Shown here: positions 4,972 to 28,414 of the stretch, in pieces
How the letters are laid out: each line of letters opens with the position of its first letter
How positions within the stretch are numbered: position 1 is the stretch's first letter
IMG/VR virus record: IMGVR_UViG_3300032220_001321
Location: 1 to 28,861 of that record
DNA length: 28,861 nt
DNA from: a virus
Reading direction: 5' to 3' (one strand)
The notes under the pieces: generated by a model
Databases searched by the model: none
What the model was told of the DNA's origin: nothing
What the model saw: only the letters and a program-made list of their open reading frames with translations
Program-made: the position numbers and the translations under genes

Positions 4972-5322
4972 ATGGCCGTCACGCGCACAGATCTCCTCGA
5001 CCTGCACGAACACGTCACCGACCTGGCGTTCCGCACGATGCAGGCGAAGAACAATGACTACGCCTCGACGAAGGATGCCCTGTACAACCTTCGCCAGTGC
5101 GAGATGCTCGGCCTGTGCTCCGTCGAGGCGGGCATACTGATCCGCATCACGGACAAGATTTCGCGCCTGACGCGCTACACTCAGGCCGGCGTCGTCGCGG
5201 TGCAGAGCGAGTCGATCGAGGACACGGTCGTGGACCTCGTGAACTACTCGGTCCTGCTCCTGGCGGCGATCAACGACAAGCGGGCGGCGCACGATGAGAC
5301 CGCCGGCTCGCGGCAGGCGTGA
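4972..5322 (+). CDS. Nmad1/DUF1599-like nucleotide-modification-associated protein
   Basis: This 116-aa protein matches the DUF1599 pattern: a first helix ending in FRTMQAKNNDYAS, a middle helix AGILIRITDKISRL, and a last helix with ESIEDTVVDLVNYSVLLLAA. The KN-DY, DK-SRL and ESI-DT-DL-NY signatures are the diagnostic ones. DUF1599 (PF07659) has been called nucleotide modification associated domain 1 because it recurs near base-modification genes in phages, which fits the modification enzymes upstream. It is mostly helical, with no signal or membrane segment. I prefer ATG 4972 over an in-frame GTG at 4936, because the latter falls in the loop of a 10-bp hairpin and adds a low-complexity leader; neither has a good ribosome site. 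The stop lies within the acceptor stem of the tRNA-like sequence. Confidence 0.75.
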   Translation: MAVTRTDLLDLHEHVTDLAFRTMQAKNNDYASTKDALYNLRQCEMLGLCSVEAGILIRITDKISRLTRYTQAGVVAVQSESIEDTVVDLVNYSVLLLAAINDKRAAHDETAGSRQA

Positions 5323-5402
5323 TGGTGTAATGGCCGCACCTCGCGTACGTTCATGGCGCTCATCGCGCCGCGAGAGTGTGGGTTCGACTCCCACTCCCGC
5401 CT
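5316..5402 (+). tRNA. tRNA-like sequence with oversized anticodon loop (aberrant or degenerate tRNA)
   Basis: Folding by eye gives acceptor GGCGTGA/TCCCGCC (6 of 7 pairs), T8-G9, D-stem GTGT/GCAC with loop AATGGCC, C26, anticodon stem TCGCG/CGCGA, variable GAGT, and a perfect T-arm GTGGG-TTCGACT-CCCAC. The anticodon loop is 23 nt (5346-5368) instead of 7, so no anticodon can be assigned. The loop itself can form a small hairpin around TGGCG-CTCATCG-CGCCG exposing CAT. The acceptor stem extends outward by 4 more pairs (5312-5315 with 5402-5405). The 3' end reads GCCA with no encoded CCA in the right place. It could be a decayed tRNA, a tRNA with a short insertion, or a tRNA-like structure with another role. 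Confidence 0.45.
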
Positions 5403-5421
5403 GCCACTACAACTAGGAACG

Positions 5422-7060: not shown

Positions 7061-7137
7061 GCGGCCGTAGCTCAATCGGTCAGAGCTGGCGTCTTATACA
7101 CGTCGGGTTGTGGGTTCGAGTCCCGCCGGCCGCACCA
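7061..7137 (+). tRNA. tRNA-Ile (anticodon TAT)
   Basis: A complete cloverleaf can be read: acceptor GCGGCCG/CGGCCGC (7 bp), D-stem GCTC/GAGC with a 9-nt loop, anticodon stem GGCGT/ACGTC with one G.U pair, loop CTTATAC giving anticodon TAT at 7095-7097, variable GGGTT, T-arm GTGGG-TTCGAGT-CCCGC with one G.U pair, discriminator A and an encoded CCA (7135-7137). It reads ATA, the isoleucine codon rarest in GC-rich hosts, without needing a lysidine-modified CAT tRNA. It lies in the gap between the converging operons. Confidence 0.92.
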
Positions 7138-18976: not shown

Positions 18977-21150
18977 TCGGCCAACACCTCCTCGAGCTCA
19001 ACGGCCCAACGGAAAACACTCGGCGTCACCTGCTCGACGTCCAAGGAATCCTGCACGAACCGCACGATGACCGCCGACCCAGTGGGCGTGGTCCAGTTGA
19101 AGGGCACCTCCACGCCCTTCCGCAGCCCGTAGAACGTCTTGAGGCCAGATGCCTCGGCCGACGTGGCCGCGTTGTTGCCGATCTTCCAGCGACGCCTCGG
19201 ACGAATTGTTTGCAAGGCGACGTACTTGTGGTCGCTGTCAAAGGAGTGCCGAAGCTGGGGCCGGCGGCTTTCCTCGATGTGACCGAACTCGTAGGCGTAG
19301 TTGAATGTGCCTGTGGCCGCATCGTTTTCGGCCAACACCGCGATCGTCGCCTGATCCTCCTCGGGCGTGTCCGGTGCAGCACCTCCGGCAGCAGCGGTCC
19401 ACGCATCGAAGTAGGAGTTGGCCGTCGTAGAGTGGTTCGAGCTCAGGAACACCACGCCTTCGCCGTTGCCGCCCTCGGAGATGCGTACCGATGTGCGGTC
19501 GGTCACTGTGCCGGCCGCGTCGATCGAGAAAGCGACTTGCGCACTGCCGGCTGCAACCGAATTGCCGGCCGAATCGTAGAAGCCGGCGGCCAAGTTCCAA
19601 GTCTGCTGGGTGCCGTTGATGTACACCTTCATCCCGATGTAGCCGGTCTGAGGTGTGGGAGAAGTCAGCGTGAGTGCTTGGAAGCGCAGCGTGAAGGAAG
19701 TACCGAGGGCCAATCCCGCCACGCCTGTCTTTGTTGCAATGACAACTGGAGCAACGCTACCTCGAAGTCGTGAGATGCTGACGTTGAAGGTTCCAGAACT
19801 TCCGATGTAGTCGACCGTCGCCGTGTAACCACGCGGACGAGTCGTGTACACCGTGTCCGACGTCGTTCCTGCGGACGTGCCGAACAGGATCAAGCCGAAT
19901 GTCCGACTAGTGCTAGATGCGCCAGTCTCCATAACGACGTCGACCGAGCGGTCTTGGAACTTCGGATCCCGTGCAACGATCTGGCTGAAAGCGTAGACCG
20001 TCGAACCGGTCAGCGAAGGACGTGCATAGATTCGGTTGTTGGCCGAGTCGAGACGCATCGAATCCTCGTAGGCCTGCGTGCCGGTCGCGTTGGTGCTTGA
20101 AAAGTCGCCAGTCCACCCATGGCGAAGGGATGTCGCGAAGCTGATGCCAGGAGACAAGGGCACGCCTGGGGTAGAGACGGTCTTTCCTCCATTCCGATCA
20201 AAGCGACGCCAGCCCTCATACAAAACCGGCGCGCCTCCGATCGGCCCCACGCTCCAGTAGTTGCACTGCATCGCCTGGCGTTGGCCGCTAGGCGTTGACA
20301 TCGAAGTGTTGTCGCCAGACATCACGATGCCGGCTCGACCAGTCGCTGTGATCGGCGACGATGAATCGTCGGCCGAGCAGACCAGCTCCTCCACCAACTG
20401 CCCTTGAGCGTCGGGCACCGGATTCACCCGATAGCCGCGGAGCTGCACGGTGCCGCCGACGTCTTGGACCGTGAATCGAAGCACATGGTCGATGTTGGTG
20501 TTCGTGGGGAAGAACGCCGACAGGTTCGGAGCGGTGCTGCCGGGCGTCGTCGAGTTGACGTTCAGTGCCGTAGGCACTCCGGCCACGACCTTGATGATCA
20601 TCAACCGAACGCGACTCGAGCCGACGTACAGAGTGCCGCCGGAGGGTTCGCCAAACAGTCCGAAGTAGTAGCCGGTGACGGTGGTGAAGCGAGTGTTGGA
20701 AGTGCCGCCCGCCGTCAAGGTGCCATTCACTCGCGCAGCCAATCCAAGCGCAAAGCCCTGCGTGCCTGTGTAAACATTCGGCCGCTCGCGGAACCTGAAG
20801 TTCCCTTTCAGCTCTACGTCGGTCGCGTTGTAGTCCCGGAAGATGAAGCCCGAGGCACTGCCATCCGAGACCACGCTTTGATGACTGACCGTGGCGGGGT
20901 TTGTTGAAAAGGCAGCAGCACCCGCGCATCCGTTGTGGATGTCGCATCCATTCGACGCAAGGACTTGAGTAGCTCCCCAAAAGCGAGTGCTGTCGACGTT
21001 GAGTTGCGAATTCCACGGCTCGAAGCGAACGTAGTTGCCGACCAGATATGTCGAGTCAACAGCACCCGACAGCGTGTCGAACGTGTCGCCGTTCGGATAG
21101 ACGCCAAACCCGTCTGGGACACGCGTCATGTTTGTCGCGATCGGCGACAT
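18973..21150 (-). CDS. Tail protein: large beta-rich N-terminus fused to gpM-like C-terminus
   Basis: The C-terminal ~115 of 725 residues resemble the minor tail protein M class: LRHSFDSDHKYVALQTIRPR, then KTFYGLRKGVEVPFNWTTPT and IVRFVQDSLDVEQ, ending AVELEEVL. Upstream are about 600 residues absent from lambda gpM. They contain two beta-sandwich-like stretches with cleft-type motifs: FRDYNATDVELKGNFRFRER and FTVQDVGGTVQLRGYRVN in the first, SVDVVMETGASSTSRTFGLI and TGYIGMKVYINGTQQTW in the second. The position between tape measure and L supports a distal-tail role, with the extra domains probably exposed carbohydrate- or receptor-binding units. The start overlaps the tape measure stop. Confidence 0.75.
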   Translation of the reverse strand: MSPIATNMTRVPDGFGVYPNGDTFDTLSGAVDSTYLVGNYVRFEPWNSQLNVDSTRFWGATQVLASNGCDIHNGCAGAAAFSTNPATVSHQSVVSDGSASGFIFRDYNATDVELKGNFRFRERPNVYTGTQGFALGLAARVNGTLTAGGTSNTRFTTVTGYYFGLFGEPSGGTLYVGSSRVRLMIIKVVAGVPTALNVNSTTPGSTAPNLSAFFPTNTNIDHVLRFTVQDVGGTVQLRGYRVNPVPDAQGQLVEELVCSADDSSSPITATGRAGIVMSGDNTSMSTPSGQRQAMQCNYWSVGPIGGAPVLYEGWRRFDRNGGKTVSTPGVPLSPGISFATSLRHGWTGDFSSTNATGTQAYEDSMRLDSANNRIYARPSLTGSTVYAFSQIVARDPKFQDRSVDVVMETGASSTSRTFGLILFGTSAGTTSDTVYTTRPRGYTATVDYIGSSGTFNVSISRLRGSVAPVVIATKTGVAGLALGTSFTLRFQALTLTSPTPQTGYIGMKVYINGTQQTWNLAAGFYDSAGNSVAAGSAQVAFSIDAAGTVTDRTSVRISEGGNGEGVVFLSSNHSTTANSYFDAWTAAAGGAAPDTPEEDQATIAVLAENDAATGTFNYAYEFGHIEESRRPQLRHSFDSDHKYVALQTIRPRRRWKIGNNAATSAEASGLKTFYGLRKGVEVPFNWTTPTGSAVIVRFVQDSLDVEQVTPSVFRWAVELEEVLAE

Positions 21151-24100
21151 CAGTTCATCCTCACGCTTTCGCGCAGCGACCTGTTAGCACCCGACGCGAT
21201 CTCTGCCGCCACGATGTCACCGATCACGCGTGCCTCACGAAGCAGCACGCCCTTCGCTCCTTCGCCGTCGAGTGCCTGCACGCGCGGATTGTAGTCGAGG
21301 TTGATGTTCACCACAGGTGCCGTGGGTGCCGCATCGTCGCGACGCGTGGACATCGCGGCCGGCGTGTTCTGGAACTCGACCGGCACGCCACGGTCAAAGC
21401 GCGCCGAACTCGATAGCGCCTGGATCAGAGGAGCAAGGTCCACCTCCGGCTGCATAGGCTCGATGGGCTGGATGCGCGAGATCAAACGATCCGCAAGCGA
21501 AGTCAGATCCACGCGCCCCAGCTCGATGACCGGCTCCGGCACTTCGAACTGGTATACCGGCTCCGGCACTTCGAACGTCGGCGCAGGCACATCCACGTTG
21601 AACGAGATGTCCGATGACCTTGAGCGCAGAGCCTCGAGCAAAGGCGCGAAATCCAACTCCGGCCTGTTCTGGAACTCAACAGGGATGCCACGGTTCGGAC
21701 CGGGCAACGGCACGAACGCCTCCGCACCACGGCCCTCGCCAAAGACCGCGATCTGGGGCTCGGTGGTCACGCCGCCACGCGCGTAAGCCTTCAGCGGCAA
21801 GCCCGTGGCATCGGCCAACATCTTGCCCGGCATCACGCCACCGTCTGCGAAGAACGACGCGCCGCCCATCGGCTTGCCCGTGCCCATCGACGCGAGACTC
21901 GATCCAGCCGGAATCGTCGACTGCATCTGCCCTGGCATCACGCCGCCCTTCTCACCGACCGTGAATCCGCCAAGCTCAGCAGCCTGAGATGCATTGGCAC
22001 CACCAGCAGCGCCGCCGGCAAATCCGATCGCGGTCAAGATCGCCGCAGCAATCTTCAACGCGATCAGTTGGTTGATGGCTTGCACGATGCCGGAGATGAA
22101 GTTGCGGATGAAGTCCTTGAAGGCGTCGCTGGCCTTCTTCGAGCCTAGGACGATGTCGTTCAGGAAGCCCGAGAAGCTGCTTTGGAAGGACTGGATGCCA
22201 GCGGATGCCAGATCCGTTGCTTCCTTGAACCGGTTCGCCGTCTCCTTCACGAACTTTTCGAGAGCGCCAGTGAACCCAGCATCGAACGCAGCGCCAGTGG
22301 TCACGGCCTCCTGACCGACGCCACGAATCTGATCCCGAATCGACTGGATGCGAGCCACGACTTCGTCGCGTTCCTCGTTCGACAAGATCGAGTTCGCGAG
22401 CTTGCCCTCGAGCACAAGGATCTCATCCGCCAGCGGCTGAACCTGCGTCGCCAAGTTGCCGAAGAAGTCGACCTGTGCGCCAGCGCCGGACACGCCCTCC
22501 TCGATCAACTGACGAGCCAACGCCGCCGACTCGCGGATGCGCTGAAGGTTCGCTTGGTACGCCTGAAGTTCGGCCTGCTGCTGCAAGGCCAGCGTCTGCG
22601 CCTGCTCTTGCCGGCGACGCTCCTCGACCTCCAAGTTGTCGGCCTGTCGTTTCTGGGTCAACTCACCGAGCAACCGCTGCTCGAACTGGTAGATCTCTTG
22701 GATGCGAGCCTCCAAGTCCGCACCCACGAATCCACGCACGCCAGCGCCCGCAAGCTCTTGAGCCTGCTTGATAAGGTCGGCAATCCGAGAACTGATTCGC
22801 GCGATATCGGCATCCGCGTCCTCGTCCACCAGAGCCTTGAAGAAGCCCTTGGCAGCTTCGTCCTGCTTCTTCTCCAGCGTGATCAGCCGAGCCTTTTCAT
22901 TCGCCAGCGCCTTGTCGGCCAACTCGTTGCGACGGATGTACACAGCGTCGACGAGTTGAATCTCCAAGGCCGCGATGCGCTGGAGCGTCGACTCCAACTC
23001 GGCACCGCTAAACTCGGGCACGCCAAGCTCCGAGAACGCACGCGCTTGGTCCCTCAGTGCGTCGATGAATTTCTGGACCTTGACAATCTCCGCATCGACC
23101 GGCTTGCCGGAAAGAGTGTCGAAGAAGGCCTCGATGCTGGGACGAGCGGCAGCGAACTTGTCGGCGATCACGCCAGACGATTCGCCAGCCTTGCGCGCCA
23201 AGACATCAAACTCCGCGCCAGCGGCAGCAGCCCTGGACTGCAACGCAGAAACCTGACGCGTGATCTCCTGACCCGCAGTTGCTTGGCTTCGAGCGTAATT
23301 CGCGTACCGCCTGCCAAACTCATCGAAGTCCCCAGACACCCTGCCGATGCCGACTCGGACATTGTCGATGATGTCGAAGAATTCCGAGAACCGATCGGCC
23401 GAGCTGTCCTGCGTGCGGCCAATCGTTGCTAGGTCTCTGTTGTACTGGGATGCAGCATTCGAAAGGTTCGATAGAGCCTTCGAATAGTCCGACGAACGGT
23501 CCACGCCCAGCGCCAAGGCCGCATTGACCGCCTGCTGCGAGCCGAAGATCTTCTTGAACTCTTCCTGCACATCGCCGCCGCCGGCTTGGATGGCTTGGAA
23601 GAGCGTGTTGATTGTTCCCGAAAGCCCCTTCGTCGAAACCGATTGCGCGTTGAACGTCTGACCAAGGACAGCGAACTTCTGATTCACGACCTCGGCATTG
23701 ATCTGCAATCCTTGCAGGATGCCTTCTAGGAATCGGAGGGACTCGGCCTCTGATGTGCCAGCTCCCCGTAGAACGGTGAAGGCCGCCAGCAGGTCTTCAA
23801 GTCGAACGCCAGAAGCCTGCGCGGTATTGCCGATGCGATCAAATCCGGCCGCCAAGATGCGCAGGTCTGATGCCGTCTCCTTCTGGACCTGACGCAACTT
23901 GGACAGGACGTCCACGCTGTTGTTCGAAGACTGGGCGAACGCCCCATTCGCATCGACCAAAAGCTTCGTAGCTTCCGTCAAGCTGATTCCCTGCACGCGC
24001 GCAAACGCAGCCGCGTCGGCGACCTTGAACACCACATCGGCAGTGGTCGCGAACTTCTCGTTCAGCAAGGTCTGGGCCGCCGTCGCCACTTCTTCTTCCG

Positions 24101-24560
24101 TGGCAAACCGCTTCACGCTCAGGGCAAGCGTGGTCAAGTCATCCTTGAGGCGCTCGGTGGACGTGGATGTCAGATCCAAACCAGCCTGAATCCGTGCCAG
24201 CACGACCTCGACCTTGCCGTACTCGTCGAGGAACTCACGAGCCTTCTGCGTCACCGTGCCGATGATCGCGCTCACGGAAACCATCTGGAGCGCAGCCTCG
24301 GCAAAGCCCTTGCTCAAAGACTCGCCGGCCTCCTTGCCTTCCTTGCCGGCCTTCTTGGTCTCCTTGGCGACATCACCGGCAGCGTCTGCCGTGTCGTCGG
24401 CAGCTTTCGCGGCACCGTCGGCCGCCTTGCGCATGTCGTCGAAGGCACTCTTCGCCTCGTCCGACAACTTCCCCACCTCACCCAGCAACTTCTGGATGGA
24501 CTTCGAAACCTGATCGTCCAGGCTCGCGATGATCTTCAGTTCAGCGTCGCTTGCTGCCAT
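21150..24560 (-). CDS. Tail tape measure protein
   Basis: This 1136-aa protein sets tail length and is ejected with the DNA. It begins with Ala/Lys/Asp-rich coiled coil (AAKAADDTADAAGDVAKETK), has long helical segments (KRQADNLEVEERRRQEQAQ), and a hydrophobic stretch (IVQAINQLIALKIAAAILTA, about 840-860) followed by a Gly-rich region. The C-terminal part holds GRGAEAFVPLPGPNRG and two imperfect units with GIPVEFQNRPELDF and GVPVEFQNTPAAM, plus FEVPEPVYQFEVPEPVIELG. At about 1.5 angstrom per residue, as estimated for other tape measures, the tail would be near 170 nm. Its ATG lies 20 bases inside the T-like frame. Confidence 0.93.
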   Translation of the reverse strand: MAASDAELKIIASLDDQVSKSIQKLLGEVGKLSDEAKSAFDDMRKAADGAAKAADDTADAAGDVAKETKKAGKEGKEAGESLSKGFAEAALQMVSVSAIIGTVTQKAREFLDEYGKVEVVLARIQAGLDLTSTSTERLKDDLTTLALSVKRFATEEEVATAAQTLLNEKFATTADVVFKVADAAAFARVQGISLTEATKLLVDANGAFAQSSNNSVDVLSKLRQVQKETASDLRILAAGFDRIGNTAQASGVRLEDLLAAFTVLRGAGTSEAESLRFLEGILQGLQINAEVVNQKFAVLGQTFNAQSVSTKGLSGTINTLFQAIQAGGGDVQEEFKKIFGSQQAVNAALALGVDRSSDYSKALSNLSNAASQYNRDLATIGRTQDSSADRFSEFFDIIDNVRVGIGRVSGDFDEFGRRYANYARSQATAGQEITRQVSALQSRAAAAGAEFDVLARKAGESSGVIADKFAAARPSIEAFFDTLSGKPVDAEIVKVQKFIDALRDQARAFSELGVPEFSGAELESTLQRIAALEIQLVDAVYIRRNELADKALANEKARLITLEKKQDEAAKGFFKALVDEDADADIARISSRIADLIKQAQELAGAGVRGFVGADLEARIQEIYQFEQRLLGELTQKRQADNLEVEERRRQEQAQTLALQQQAELQAYQANLQRIRESAALARQLIEEGVSGAGAQVDFFGNLATQVQPLADEILVLEGKLANSILSNEERDEVVARIQSIRDQIRGVGQEAVTTGAAFDAGFTGALEKFVKETANRFKEATDLASAGIQSFQSSFSGFLNDIVLGSKKASDAFKDFIRNFISGIVQAINQLIALKIAAAILTAIGFAGGAAGGANASQAAELGGFTVGEKGGVMPGQMQSTIPAGSSLASMGTGKPMGGASFFADGGVMPGKMLADATGLPLKAYARGGVTTEPQIAVFGEGRGAEAFVPLPGPNRGIPVEFQNRPELDFAPLLEALRSRSSDISFNVDVPAPTFEVPEPVYQFEVPEPVIELGRVDLTSLADRLISRIQPIEPMQPEVDLAPLIQALSSSARFDRGVPVEFQNTPAAMSTRRDDAAPTAPVVNINLDYNPRVQALDGEGAKGVLLREARVIGDIVAAEIASGANRSLRESVRMN

Positions 24561-24957
24561 TGTTCTTCGACCTGCTTTCTACCGCGCGTTGCTCGGCCTC
24601 GATCATCTTTCCACGCTCGCTCGCCGCGATGTCGACCAGCCGCATCAACTTGGACGGCTGCTCGCTGTACCCGCCCGAAACCGGCATCACGCCGTTCTGT
24701 ATGTGGCTCCACGCGCGCAAGACCACGCGGCCAAGGTCACATGCCTCGGCCGATGGACAACGCTCGCGCTGCACTTGGCCTCGTCCGCCACAGGCCTCGC
24801 ACTTCAAGTCTAGACCAAAGCACGACTCGCAAGTCCGGGTGTATACGACCACGCCCGCCGGCTCGTCGCAGCCCCACCGCTTCCTCAACTCCGGCGTCTT
24901 GCACTTCGGACACTTCGCCGGCTGGTCGCCAAAGGCCGCGTGGACGGCGGCTAGGAC
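24541..24957 (-). CDS. T-like frameshift extension of the tail assembly chaperone (zinc-ribbon)
   Basis: This frame has no ATG or GTG before its conserved part; the first start-like codon is a TTG (24888) that comes after the first CPKC knuckle. Read after the -1 slip at 24957, it gives VLAAVHAAFGDQPAKCPKCK, then CESC and CEAC knuckles (a DnaJ-like CxxC set), SAEACDLGRVVLRAWSHIQN, and a basic tail. The zinc-ribbon content differs from lambda gpT, but position, overlap and slippery site match. The product is probably made only as a ~260-aa G-T fusion that binds tape measure and tube subunits during tail assembly. Confidence 0.75.
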   Translation of the reverse strand, partial: VLAAVHAAFGDQPAKCPKCKTPELRKRWGCDEPAGVVVYTRTCESCFGLDLKCEACGGRGQVQRERCPSAEACDLGRVVLRAWSHIQNGVMPVSGGYSEQPSKLMRLVDIAASERGKMIEAEQRAVESRSKNNGSKRR

Positions 24958-24963
24958 TTTCCC
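24935..24963 (-). promoter_or_regulatory. Programmed -1 frameshift site: GGGAAAG slippery heptamer plus stem-loop
   Basis: On the minus strand the heptamer G-GGA-AAG (24963-24957) is in the zero frame of the G-like gene, two codons before its TAG stop. It is the same heptamer as in lambda G-T. A 5-nt spacer (24956-24952) is followed by a 5-bp stem, GCCGC/GCGGC, with a 7-nt loop (24951-24935), a plausible stimulator. Slipping by -1 opens the frame for 139 codons into the zinc-ribbon part. Confidence 0.85.
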
Positions 24964-25322
24964 GCCTCGTCCTTGCCCACGCTCTCTCGACCGACAATCG
25001 CGTTGAAGAGCTCCAGAACAATGGCCGTGGGCAGCAACTCGACCATCTGCTTGGTCGCGTACCCGTCCTCGCCCTTCTCGAACGGCAGAACGCCGTCAGG
25101 GCCCTCCAGATTGCGCCAGCCGACAAGCGCGCGCCGGACGGTCTCAATCATCAGCCGGGCACTTTGCGTCGCGCCTTGGGCCTCGGTAAAGGCCGCCAGC
25201 TCGGCCTCGTCGTAGACCGTGAACGGGCGAAGGAGGAAGACGGTCTGGACCTCAGGCGCGTGCGTGCGCTCGGCCTTGAGGATGTATTCGCGCGGCTTGC
25301 GCGGGTCGAGGGAGAGCTTCAT
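24951..25322 (-). CDS. Tail assembly chaperone (gpG-like)
   Basis: This 123-aa protein is the first of the G/G-T pair, which guides tube polymerisation on the tape measure and is absent from the virion. It starts MKLSLDPRKPREYILKAER, with beta-strand FLLRPFTVYDEAELAAF and helical parts RLMIETVRRALVGWRN and KQMVELLPTAIVLELFNAIV, then a short Gly/Lys/Ser tail ending AGKS. Length and position between the tube and tape measure fit. A -1 frameshift near the end extends it into the T-like frame. A hairpin lies between this gene and the tube gene upstream. Confidence 0.8.
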   Translation of the reverse strand: MKLSLDPRKPREYILKAERTHAPEVQTVFLLRPFTVYDEAELAAFTEAQGATQSARLMIETVRRALVGWRNLEGPDGVLPFEKGEDGYATKQMVELLPTAIVLELFNAIVGRESVGKDEAGKS

Positions 25323-25339
25323 GCCCAGATGATAACGAA

Positions 25340-25368
25340 GCCGGCCGCGCTGTTTCGGCGCGGCCGGC
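25340..25368 (-). terminator. Strong hairpin between tail-tube and chaperone genes
   Basis: A perfect 10-bp stem (GCCGGCCGCG/CGCGGCCGGC, extendable by one or two pairs) with a 9-nt loop lies 22 bases after the second tube gene. It could cut transcription partly, keeping chaperone levels below tube levels, or protect the tube mRNA 3' end. There is no long U-tract on the minus strand. Confidence 0.6.
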
Positions 25369-25390: not shown

Positions 25391-26881
25391 TCAGACGCCA
25401 GTATCCCAGATGATCGCGAACTCGTTGTCGCCCGACACGCTTGAGGAACTGCCGCTGTCCAAGGCAAAAGAAACGTCGCGCGTGATTATCCCGTTCCTGT
25501 CGCCTTGGCCGATGCTTTGGAGAGTCATCGTCGGCATGATGAACCGGAACTTGTTTGCAGCAGTCGAGCCCACGTCGATGTTCATCCTATTTGAATTCCC
25601 GGCGAAGTAGTTCGCCATGAAGTCAAAGTCCAGCTCAGGGGCCTGCTCTGGATCAATCGTCAGCGTCGGAACTCGACCGTTCTGGTAGATGCCGTCGATG
25701 CCAGTACTGGCCGACATGCAGCGGCGGTACTGCACGTCCGCAGCCATGTCGATGCCAAAGGACGTGGCGCAGACTGTCCTCTGACCACCCAGCGTTGTGA
25801 TGACATCATCGCCGGCCGTCACCGTGGCACCCAGCAAGACAGGCGGCACCAGCGTGTCGTAGGAGATGCCAGAGACGTTGCCAGAGTCGACGACCGCGTT
25901 CTTGATGCCTTGGAACGTGAAGTTGAAAAGCACAGGCTCCCCGATGTTGCCCGTGATGCTCACAGATCCACGACAGCCCGCCATGGATTCAAACACGCCG
26001 TCCTTGGCGACGCCAATCGAGGCCGTGCGACAAACATTGTCTGCTTGCAGATATTGGTTCGAAGGTGCAAGCTGAGCCGAGGAAGTCAACAGCACGCCGG
26101 ACTCACTGTAGATCGAAACCGTTTCGCTTGCTGTAAACGCACCGGACACTCGACGAACGATGCACTGCGTCGTCGCAGGTGATGCCGGCATGTCGTAGTA
26201 GGAAATCGCGATCGCCTTGCTGCTGTTGCCGACAATCGTGTGTGCTTTGTTGAAGGACTGAGAGGAGTTGAAAAGTAAAGTGTAGAGCGGCACGCTCCAC
26301 GGATACCAGCCGATTGCTGTCTCCGAGATCGAGCCCGAAGTTGTGAAGCTACCGCTGCCGGGAAAGGTGAATCCAGTGCCAGCACCTGGAGTTCCACTTC
26401 CCAAGTACAAATTGCCGGCAGCGCCGATCAGACCCTGCGTCGCCCACACATACGGAGCTCCGTTGTAGTAGGTTCCGATGGCCGTGAAGGTCGCACCGCC
26501 AGAAGTCTGAGTGATCAACGTGCCGTGACGGATCGGGCCGTTGGTAATCGCGCCAGACACGTCGAAGCGATACAGGCGATCCCGCCGGAAGCCACATGCC
26601 ACCAGCGGGATGTCGAACATCGGACGCGTGCCCAGTCCACCCGACGTGCGACCAGCAGCCTCAAGAGTGAATGACGTCGTACCGAGAACAGCGCCAGCAA
26701 CCGGAGAGAGTGGCGTGAAAGTCTCGCGCGCGACGTCGCGCTGGTAGCTCTCGACCTCGAACGTCATCTGGGGATCAATCGCCAAGTACTTCCCGTTCGC
26801 CGAAGTGAACAGTGTGGAAGTGAACGTGCCCTCGACCGTTTCCACGGCGCAGAAGAGCTGCTGAAGTCTTGTCAGTGACAT
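25391..26881 (-). CDS. Major tail (tube) protein paralogue, copy 2
   Basis: This 496-aa protein is homologous along its length to the next upstream gene: LTRLQQLFCAVETVEG, LAIDPQMTFEVESYQRDVAR, FTPLSPVAGAVLG, then RRCMSASTGIDGIYQNGR and QGDRNGIITRDVSFALDSG at the end. The pattern of an N-terminal ETVEG, a QRDVAR block and a late ITRDVSF strand marks the tail-tube family. It has a central Ser/Thr/Gly-rich region (residues about 150-290) that differs most from copy 1. A GAGGATCG ribosome site precedes the ATG. It may be a variant subunit or one replacing the other in a tube segment. Confidence 0.82.
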   Translation of the reverse strand: MSLTRLQQLFCAVETVEGTFTSTLFTSANGKYLAIDPQMTFEVESYQRDVARETFTPLSPVAGAVLGTTSFTLEAAGRTSGGLGTRPMFDIPLVACGFRRDRLYRFDVSGAITNGPIRHGTLITQTSGGATFTAIGTYYNGAPYVWATQGLIGAAGNLYLGSGTPGAGTGFTFPGSGSFTTSGSISETAIGWYPWSVPLYTLLFNSSQSFNKAHTIVGNSSKAIAISYYDMPASPATTQCIVRRVSGAFTASETVSIYSESGVLLTSSAQLAPSNQYLQADNVCRTASIGVAKDGVFESMAGCRGSVSITGNIGEPVLFNFTFQGIKNAVVDSGNVSGISYDTLVPPVLLGATVTAGDDVITTLGGQRTVCATSFGIDMAADVQYRRCMSASTGIDGIYQNGRVPTLTIDPEQAPELDFDFMANYFAGNSNRMNIDVGSTAANKFRFIMPTMTLQSIGQGDRNGIITRDVSFALDSGSSSSVSGDNEFAIIWDTGV

Positions 26882-26917: not shown

Positions 26918-28414
26918 TCAGACCGCAGGATCCCAGATCACCACGAATTCGTTGTCGCCGGCAACCGACGAAGACGAGCCCGAACTCATGTTGAATGAAA
27001 TATCCCGAGTGATAGTGCCGTTGCGATCACCCTGGCCCACAGCCGTGACGGCCGCGTTCAGGACATTCACACGGAACTTGTTCGGAGCAGTCGTGCCAAT
27101 GGTCGTGTCGATACCGATCGTGGTCGCCGAGAAATAGTTGTCCATCCAATCGTAGTCCAACTCGAGCGACAGGTCAGGGTCGATCGTCCCAGTCGGCGTG
27201 CGGCCGTTGTAGTAGATGCCGTCGATGCCGGTCGTGGCCGTCATGCAACGGCGGAACTGGATGTCATTCGCCATGTCAAAGTTGAACGACGTGGCGCAGA
27301 ACGACTTGCGCTGGGCCAGAGTGAAGTTTGAGTCGCCAACAGTCATCGAAGCGCCAAGAAGAACAGGCGGCGTGGCATCGTCGTATGTCACCGACGACAC
27401 GCTACCACCGTCGACCACGGCTTCCTTGATGCCTTGGAAGGTGAAGTTCAGCAGCGCAGGCTCGCCGACGTTGCCAGAAATCGAAACGCTTCCGCGCGCA
27501 CCCTTCATCGACTCGCGCACGCCATCCTTGGACAAGCCGATGCTGATAGCAGCGGAATTGTTGTAGACATTGCTCGACAAATCGAAGCTCTGCGTGTAAC
27601 TGCCCGAACCGAAGTTCGGATTCACGCCAGAAACAACCGCACCAGCGCGCCAGACGACGCAGGCGGTGTCCGACGTAGTGAAGGTTCCCTGGACACGACG
27701 CATGTAGATGACCGTGCCGGATGAGGCGACAGCGTAGTACACGATGCCGATTGCACCAGTACTGTTTCCAACCACGACATCATTCGCTTGCAAAGCAGCA
27801 CCAAGAGCAGCGACCGTGGCCTTGTACAAAGCAACGGACGACGGGAACCAGCCAAGAGCGGCATTAATTGCAGTGGCCGTCACAGTTCCATGCGCCGTGG
27901 CACCCGAGTTTGAAGTCAGTGCAACAGACGCCATACCGGTCGAGTTGCCAAGGGTATTGTCAGCTCCCTTCGTGCACCACACGGTCGTGGCTCCGATCGG
28001 ATAGTTGCCGATCGCCGTAGCCGTTCCAGTAGCCGTCAAAAGCGTTCCGTGGGGAATGGCATTCGTTGCAACACCACCAGAGAGCGTAAGTCGGATGAGA
28101 CGCTCGCGCCGGAATCCGCACGCAACCAGCGGCAAGTCCCACTGCGGATAGCTGCTGATGGTAGTCGCACCCGACTTTGCAGCCATTTCCAGCGAGAACG
28201 AGCAATTGCCAAGCACCGCGCCGGCCAGCGGCGACAACGGAGTGAAGCTCTCGCGCGCTACATCGCGCTGGTAGGTTTCGACCTCGAAGGTCATCTGCGG
28301 GTCGATCGCGAGGTACTTCGCGTTCGCTGCCGAGAACAAGGTGCCCGCGGCGACCGCCGTACCTTCAACGGTTTCGGCCGCGATGCAGAGTTGTTGAAGT
28401 CTTGTCAGTGCCAT
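26918..28414 (-). CDS. Major tail (tube) protein, copy 1
   Basis: This 498-aa protein is the first tube gene. Markers are MALTRLQQLCIAAETVEGT, LAIDPQMTFEVETYQRDVAR, RRCMTATTGIDGIYYNGR, LELDYDWMDNYFS and GQGDRNGTITRDISFNMSSG. Copy 2 follows after 36 bases. Lambda gpV is about half this length, so the additional residues probably form an external domain on the tube. A GAGAG ribosome site precedes the ATG, and it follows the tail terminator gene by 9 bases. Its product should be the most abundant tail protein. Confidence 0.87.
   Translation of the reverse strand: MALTRLQQLCIAAETVEGTAVAAGTLFSAANAKYLAIDPQMTFEVETYQRDVARESFTPLSPLAGAVLGNCSFSLEMAAKSGATTISSYPQWDLPLVACGFRRERLIRLTLSGGVATNAIPHGTLLTATGTATAIGNYPIGATTVWCTKGADNTLGNSTGMASVALTSNSGATAHGTVTATAINAALGWFPSSVALYKATVAALGAALQANDVVVGNSTGAIGIVYYAVASSGTVIYMRRVQGTFTTSDTACVVWRAGAVVSGVNPNFGSGSYTQSFDLSSNVYNNSAAISIGLSKDGVRESMKGARGSVSISGNVGEPALLNFTFQGIKEAVVDGGSVSSVTYDDATPPVLLGASMTVGDSNFTLAQRKSFCATSFNFDMANDIQFRRCMTATTGIDGIYYNGRTPTGTIDPDLSLELDYDWMDNYFSATTIGIDTTIGTTAPNKFRVNVLNAAVTAVGQGDRNGTITRDISFNMSSGSSSSVAGDNEFVVIWDPAV

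Follow-up and report, generated by a model that had tools for sequence, protein, structure and literature searches.

Does the small gene lying between the tail tube and tape measure genes of this virus encode a single protein, or is it extended by a ribosomal -1 frameshift of the kind known from phage lambda, and what sort of domain would such a frameshift append? We analyzed an IMG/VR viral record 28,861 bases long, hereafter the window. A first-pass annotation had proposed that a GGGAAAG heptamer, followed after 5 nt by a stem-loop, directs a lambda-type frameshift into a DnaJ-like zinc-ribbon T domain. Our analysis retains the frameshift signal and the cysteine-bearing T of this proposal, drops the stem-loop and weakens the DnaJ label. 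A lambda-type frameshift is strongly supported because gene order, the fold predicted for the G product and the conservation of the heptamer all point to it. We consider it highly probable that the locus encodes a G/GT pair of tail assembly chaperones, in which ribosomes slip by -1 from G GGA AAG into a zinc-ribbon T.

Gene order, reading frames and the G product

On the minus strand, a tail terminator-like gene is followed by two tail tube-like genes, G, T in the -1 frame, and the tape measure gene (Table 1). The order tail tube, G, T, tape measure is common to the annotated relatives that span the region. A small gene between tail tube and tape measure, continued by a -1 frame extension, is the arrangement that defines the lambda-type G/GT class, and it is the one found here; the 3' end of T overlaps the start of the tape measure gene by 20 nt.

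Table 1. Coordinates of the tail genes, the frameshift site and the T motifs in the window
Feature	Position	Strand	Remarks
Tail terminator-like gene	28849-28424	minus	
Tail tube-like protein, second paralogous copy	26918..28414	minus	52% identical to the copy nearest G
Tail tube-like protein, copy nearest G	25391..26881	minus	phrog_290 tail, E 7.3e-9; resembles the RcTiptonus tail tube gene
G, tail assembly chaperone, zero-frame product	24951..25322	minus	ORF, 123 aa + stop; AlphaFold2 model
Slippery heptamer G GGA AAG	24957..24963	minus	in register, 10 nt ahead of the G stop
T extension via -1 frameshift (predicted)	24541..24957	minus	138 codons + stop
Stem-loop GCCGC-CGTCCAC-GCGGC of the first-pass annotation	24935..24951	minus	5-bp stem, drawable 5 nt past the heptamer
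Outer cysteine cluster, first part: C16, C19 (CPKC), C30 (GC)	24868..24912	minus	invariant in 13/13 diverse T
First possible independent T-frame start, TTG	24886..24888	minus	product from here would lack C16 and C19
Inner cysteine cluster: C43, C46, C53, C56 (CESC...CEAC)	24790..24831	minus	invariant in 13 window-type T
C67-P68 (CP), proposed last ligand of the outer site	24754..24759	minus	invariant
C-terminal T motif MPVSGGYSEQ (LPxxGGxxxQ)	24658..24687	minus	P, first G and Q invariant in 13/13
Tape measure protein gene	21150..24560	minus	Pfam PhageMin_Tail, E 9.9e-10; PHROG tape measure families

The heptamer GGGAAAG is in the right frame, as had been claimed: read from 24963 to 24957, its zero-frame codons GGA AAG become GGG AAA after a -1 slip. 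The -1 frame is likewise open into T, down to a stop at 24541-24543. In the zero frame, the 3' end of G reads ...GKDEAGKS and terminates. The predicted fusion, of 260 amino acids, would pass through ...EAGK-VLAAVHAAFG..., reading past the slip as VLAAVHAAFGDQPAKCPKCKTPELRKRWGCDEP..., and its junction peptide would be EAGKVLAAVHAAFGDQPAK. Concerning the codons around the slip, GCG accounts for 36% of Ala codons in six tail genes of the window, GGA for 14% of Gly and AAG for 94% of Lys. Taken alone, the heptamer of this gene is unremarkable: 7.3% of synonymous shuffles place a strong in-frame heptamer within the final 105 nt of G, and the case therefore rests on its conservation.

The G product was modeled with AlphaFold2 from 12 aligned sequences (pLDDT 81, pTM 0.77). 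The best PDB match of the model is the HK97 tail assembly chaperone (2OB9), with a weak Foldseek E-value (0.43). Upon re-alignment (VIA), Z reaches 6.9 to YqbN (3KLU) and 6.0 to 2OB9, with no other of the 150 chains listed above Z 2; values of 6 to 7 may reflect a common arrangement, and the scores are modest and the list consistent. Many of the BFVD matches to the model are also named tail assembly chaperone. The model thus suggests, with modest scores, a tail assembly chaperone fold for G. No sequence relative of G or T was found in the PDB; no convincing family emerged for either from Pfam and PHROG searches, nor any from NCBIfam, which was searched with T.

Some other features of the window deserve mention. 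The tandem tail tube-like paralogs (25391-26881 and 26918-28414, minus strand) are both present in relatives L002, L003 and L004, and the L008 and L012 contigs gave one tail tube-like match each; judging by these contigs, the duplication seems confined to the subgroup of the window. A tRNA-Ile with anticodon TAT is predicted by ARAGORN and Rfam at 7061-7137 (plus strand), and a tRNA-Met at 5315-5406 by ARAGORN only.

Heptamer conservation and RNA structure

A comparison of frames in related phages, which the first-pass annotation had suggested as a check, found the heptamer kept rather than lost. GGGAAAG is present in all 12 close relatives that cover the site (L002-L013), at the same offset (359 of G) and the same distance to the stop, in genes where only 23 of 69 same-residue G codons are identical across seven of these genomes. 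At larger distances, the heptamer in register at the G-T junction is GGGAAAA in L038, GGGAAAG in L041-L044, GGGAAAC in RHph_I4, L338C and L059, AAAAAAG in RcTiptonus, and AAAAAAC in L014/L039, L040, RcZahn, RHph_TM16, JP1, Mae-JY22 and the zinc-less L050 and L054. The G/GT class is further characterized by an X XXY YYZ heptamer that stands in register towards the 3' end of G and is kept in relatives, as is the case here. Moreover, each of the 14 G genes tested contains exactly one strong in-frame heptamer, near its end. Synonymous-shuffle probabilities range from 0.016 to 0.29 per G gene, and the product of one such probability per lineage, over nine lineages, is about 1e-11 if independence is assumed. 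The T homology of Mae-JY22 and MinM1 relies on weak tblastn matches (E 7 and 0.3) together with gene order and motifs, and Mae-JY22 T used as a query found no viral relatives; judging from these features, the Microcystis phage probably belongs among the relatives with an in-frame heptamer at the junction.

The stem-loop previously noted past the heptamer can be drawn, but its folding energy is no better than that of synonymous-codon shuffles (z = +0.6 at 36 and 51 nt) or of dinucleotide shuffles (z = -0.47), and L006 breaks one of its pairs by a C.A mismatch. Being no more stable than shuffles, the structure at 24951-24935 is not supported as a frameshift stimulator; a downstream RNA structure is not among the properties that define the G/GT class. 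Folding downstream of 20 heptamers gave no consistent signal relative to synonymous shuffles; z fell below -2 in a few cases (RHph_I4, L338C, RHph_TM16, MinM1, lambda at 81 nt). Among same-residue codons, 6 of 9 are identical within the first 12 of T, versus 13 of 49 later on, a slight over-conservation that could reflect some signal, not necessarily the hairpin noted at first.

Other candidate elements were seen around the G-T junction. A Shine-Dalgarno-like AAGGA, conserved in seven close relatives, lies about 6 nt upstream of the heptamer and was considered as a stimulator. The corresponding element of dnaX is spaced by 10 to 14 nt; since the spacing of AAGGA is shorter, it is a candidate at most. 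In the Rhizobium-type L045, L046 and L059, an inverted repeat, GGTGGAGC...GCTCCACC, is found about 22 nt past GGGAAAC; for the two of them that were folded over 81 nt, z is about -2.2 to -2.6, and the repeat may be a real stimulator in these phages.

Upstream of G, a perfect 11-bp hairpin, GCCGGCCGCGC-CGAAACA-GCGCGGCCGGC, followed by TTCGTTA, lies between the tail tube gene and G (25333-25368, minus strand); the hairpin ends 17 nt before the G ATG. Relatives have the same hairpin with a perfect stem of 11 to 12 bp and a quite different sequence, and TTCGTTA is invariant; aligned from the stem base, four types of this hairpin display compensatory double changes in 8 of 11 pairs. One possibility is that it terminates transcription in part or serves as a processing site, keeping G/GT levels lower than those of the tail tube protein. 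No Shine-Dalgarno sequence is evident before the G ATG in the window (TATCATCTGGGCATG; 25300-25345, minus strand), nor in L006 and L008; distant relatives such as L041 and L014 do have one.

The cysteine-rich T extension and alternative readings

Eight cysteines are shared by all of 13 window-type T sequences, even where identity falls to about 29%. When the T sequences of Rhodobacter, Rhizobium, Agrobacterium and Microcystis phages are added, C16, C19, C30 and C67 (CxxC..GC..CP) are still invariant, and the inner CxxC-x6-CxxC is absent from these additional sequences. A conserved set of four cysteine ligands is the general mark of zinc ribbons, and the alignment suggests an outer Cys4 zinc site in all of these proteins; the window's group would have an inner site as well, the two being nested in the manner of DnaJ. 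T would probably be a cysteine-rich, zinc-binding domain unlike that of lambda; its model is poor (pLDDT 58.6), and the zinc pairing is deduced from the alignment alone. Since a segment similar to the C-terminal motif, LPxxGG..DQ, occurs in the zinc-less T of L050 and L054, the ribbon appears to be a lineage module rather than a universal part of T.

As for the 'DnaJ-like zinc-ribbon' designation, the conserved cysteines make a zinc ribbon likely, but the DnaJ part corresponds to sub-threshold Pfam matches (E 0.042-0.13). The DnaJ cysteine-rich domain (PF00684) is built of nested CxxC motifs, of which T has one full CxxCxGxG (CEACGGRG), the three others being incomplete or absent, and T scores 12.9 bits against a gathering threshold of 32.7; membership of this family was rejected. 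A search of genome contigs with T gave no match, and literature searches for zinc in tail assembly chaperones returned nothing on T domains. The best reading is that of a predicted zinc-ribbon T domain unmatched in Pfam, PHROGs or NCBIfam. The T domains that frameshifting adds to tail chaperones differ widely from one another, and little is understood about them; the type described here has a recognizable conserved core, putatively metal-binding, over which sequences from alphaproteobacterial phages, one cyanobacterial phage and uncultured viruses can be aligned, and which offers obvious residues to mutate.

It is conceivable that T is instead a separate gene with an independent start (TTG 24888 or a non-standard codon), possibly coupled to G termination, and that the heptamer is incidental. 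Some relatives do have a possible start before the T cysteines (RcZahn, RHph_I4, L014 and L006): the GTG of RHph_I4 and the ATG of L014 sit just past the G stop, and the ATG of RcZahn overlaps the stop region of G (gp27; TAATG) and is annotated as the start of a separate gene. RHph_TM16, a relative of RcZahn, keeps the heptamer and lacks that ATG. The T frame of the window, followed from the stop that precedes it, contains no ATG, GTG or TTG until TTG 24888, which comes after CPKC; the earlier remark that T has no usable start before this knuckle was thus correct, and translation from TTG 24888, named at the time as an outcome contrary to the frameshift, would yield a product deprived of two invariant cysteines. 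L002, L005, L007, L041, RcTiptonus and Mae-JY22 also have no such codon before the cysteines, and in L003-L005 and L007, where none occurs between the slip and the first cysteine, the next start is T codon 52, past C46. Across the relatives, the heptamer is the constant feature in the alignments and independent start codons are not conserved, which makes a separate T gene unlikely. The -1 frame could also be reached by slippage of the polymerase rather than the ribosome, as the A-rich AAAAAAC/G of several relatives could permit; in the window and its close relatives, however, the runs comprise no more than three G and three A, too few for efficient polymerase slippage, and we regard this route as very improbable.

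Two further readings bear on T itself. That it might be a decayed or unexpressed frame, with cysteines present by chance, is largely refuted by the alignments, in which T amino acids are 68-77% identical with synonymous drift and the eight cysteines persist at the greatest distances; we give this possibility hardly any credence. Alternatively, the frameshift could be real and the cysteines could form disulphides or bind an iron-sulphur cluster instead of zinc, a reading to which the low confidence of the T model lends itself. Against it, the protein is expected in the cytoplasm, T has weak matches to Zn-ribbon and DnaJ profiles, and zinc ribbons typically show the CxxC-C-CP and CxxC-x6-CxxC spacings that T has, so that ligands or bonds of this other kind seem improbable.

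Proposed mechanism and comparison with known systems

For the frameshift into a zinc-ribbon T, the reading that we prefer, we infer the following course. Most ribosomes would stop at the G stop codon and release G, which, by analogy with lambda, would coat the tape measure protein. A minority would shift back at G GGA AAG, take GGG AAA as codons and continue into T, yielding the GT fusion. T would fold round the outer zinc site (C16, C19, C30 and C67), within which the second Cys4 site (C43, C46, C53 and C56) would be nested, and the conserved LPxxGGxxxQ segment and then a helix would follow. The ribbon would probably act as a rigid scaffold that lets T bring a tail tube subunit to the G-coated tape measure, GT bridging tape measure and tube, again by analogy with lambda. 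A more speculative and rather doubtful extension is that these proteins form a distinct structural class of T, unrelated to lambda gpT, in which zinc is needed to bridge the tape measure to the tail tube, and that the window's clade added a second ribbon inside the first. If this were true, zinc supply or redox state could gate tail assembly.

The gpG/gpGT system of phage lambda is alike in gene order, in the position of G GGA AAG near the 3' end of G, in the -1 T extension and in the overlap of T with the tape measure gene; GGGAAAG was found in register in the lambda record, in agreement with the initial statement that the two heptamers are identical. There is, in contrast, no detectable sequence relation for G or T (hhalign probabilities of 0.2 and 0.3%), although the absent match to lambda T does not exclude distant homology. 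Unlike T of the window, lambda T has no cysteine after the slip, and the remark that lambda lacks such a domain holds. In lambda, G binds the tape measure and T recruits the tail tube protein, with a ratio of about 30:1 (PMC5009743). The HK97 gp13 chaperone (PDB 2OB9) and YqbN (3KLU) resemble the G model in fold, and no sequence similarity to them was found.

Closer counterparts exist in cultured phages. Rhodobacter phages RcTiptonus, RcDurkin, RcKickapoo and RcMenchie carry a tail assembly chaperone, gp42, and a 'hypothetical' gp43, which together would give a homologous fusion (28.7% identity over 85%, E 2e-5) and likewise adjoin the tape measure gene. RcTiptonus has AAAAAAG in register; the T of this group differs from that of the window in having the outer four cysteines only, and the RcTiptonus record annotates gp42 and gp43 apart, without a join. 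RcZahn (gp27/gp28), RHph_TM16, RHph_I4, vB_RleS_L338C and Agrobacterium phage JP1 share the order G, zinc-type T, tape measure, with an in-frame AAAAAAC or GGGAAAC, only four conserved T cysteines and an unannotated frameshift. The RcZahn paper reported no clear evidence of a frameshift signal (PMC8601537). In the RcZahn record, A AAA AAC nevertheless stands in register at 23927-23933 (L047:2453-2459), within gp27 and 19 nt before its stop, and the -1 frame from this heptamer runs into gp28; from the sequence, both routes, frameshift and independent ATG, are possible in this phage. From this comparison, cultured Rhodobacter, Rhizobium and Agrobacterium phages, RcZahn included, appear to encode fusion proteins that escaped annotation, and these phages are tractable for mass spectrometry.
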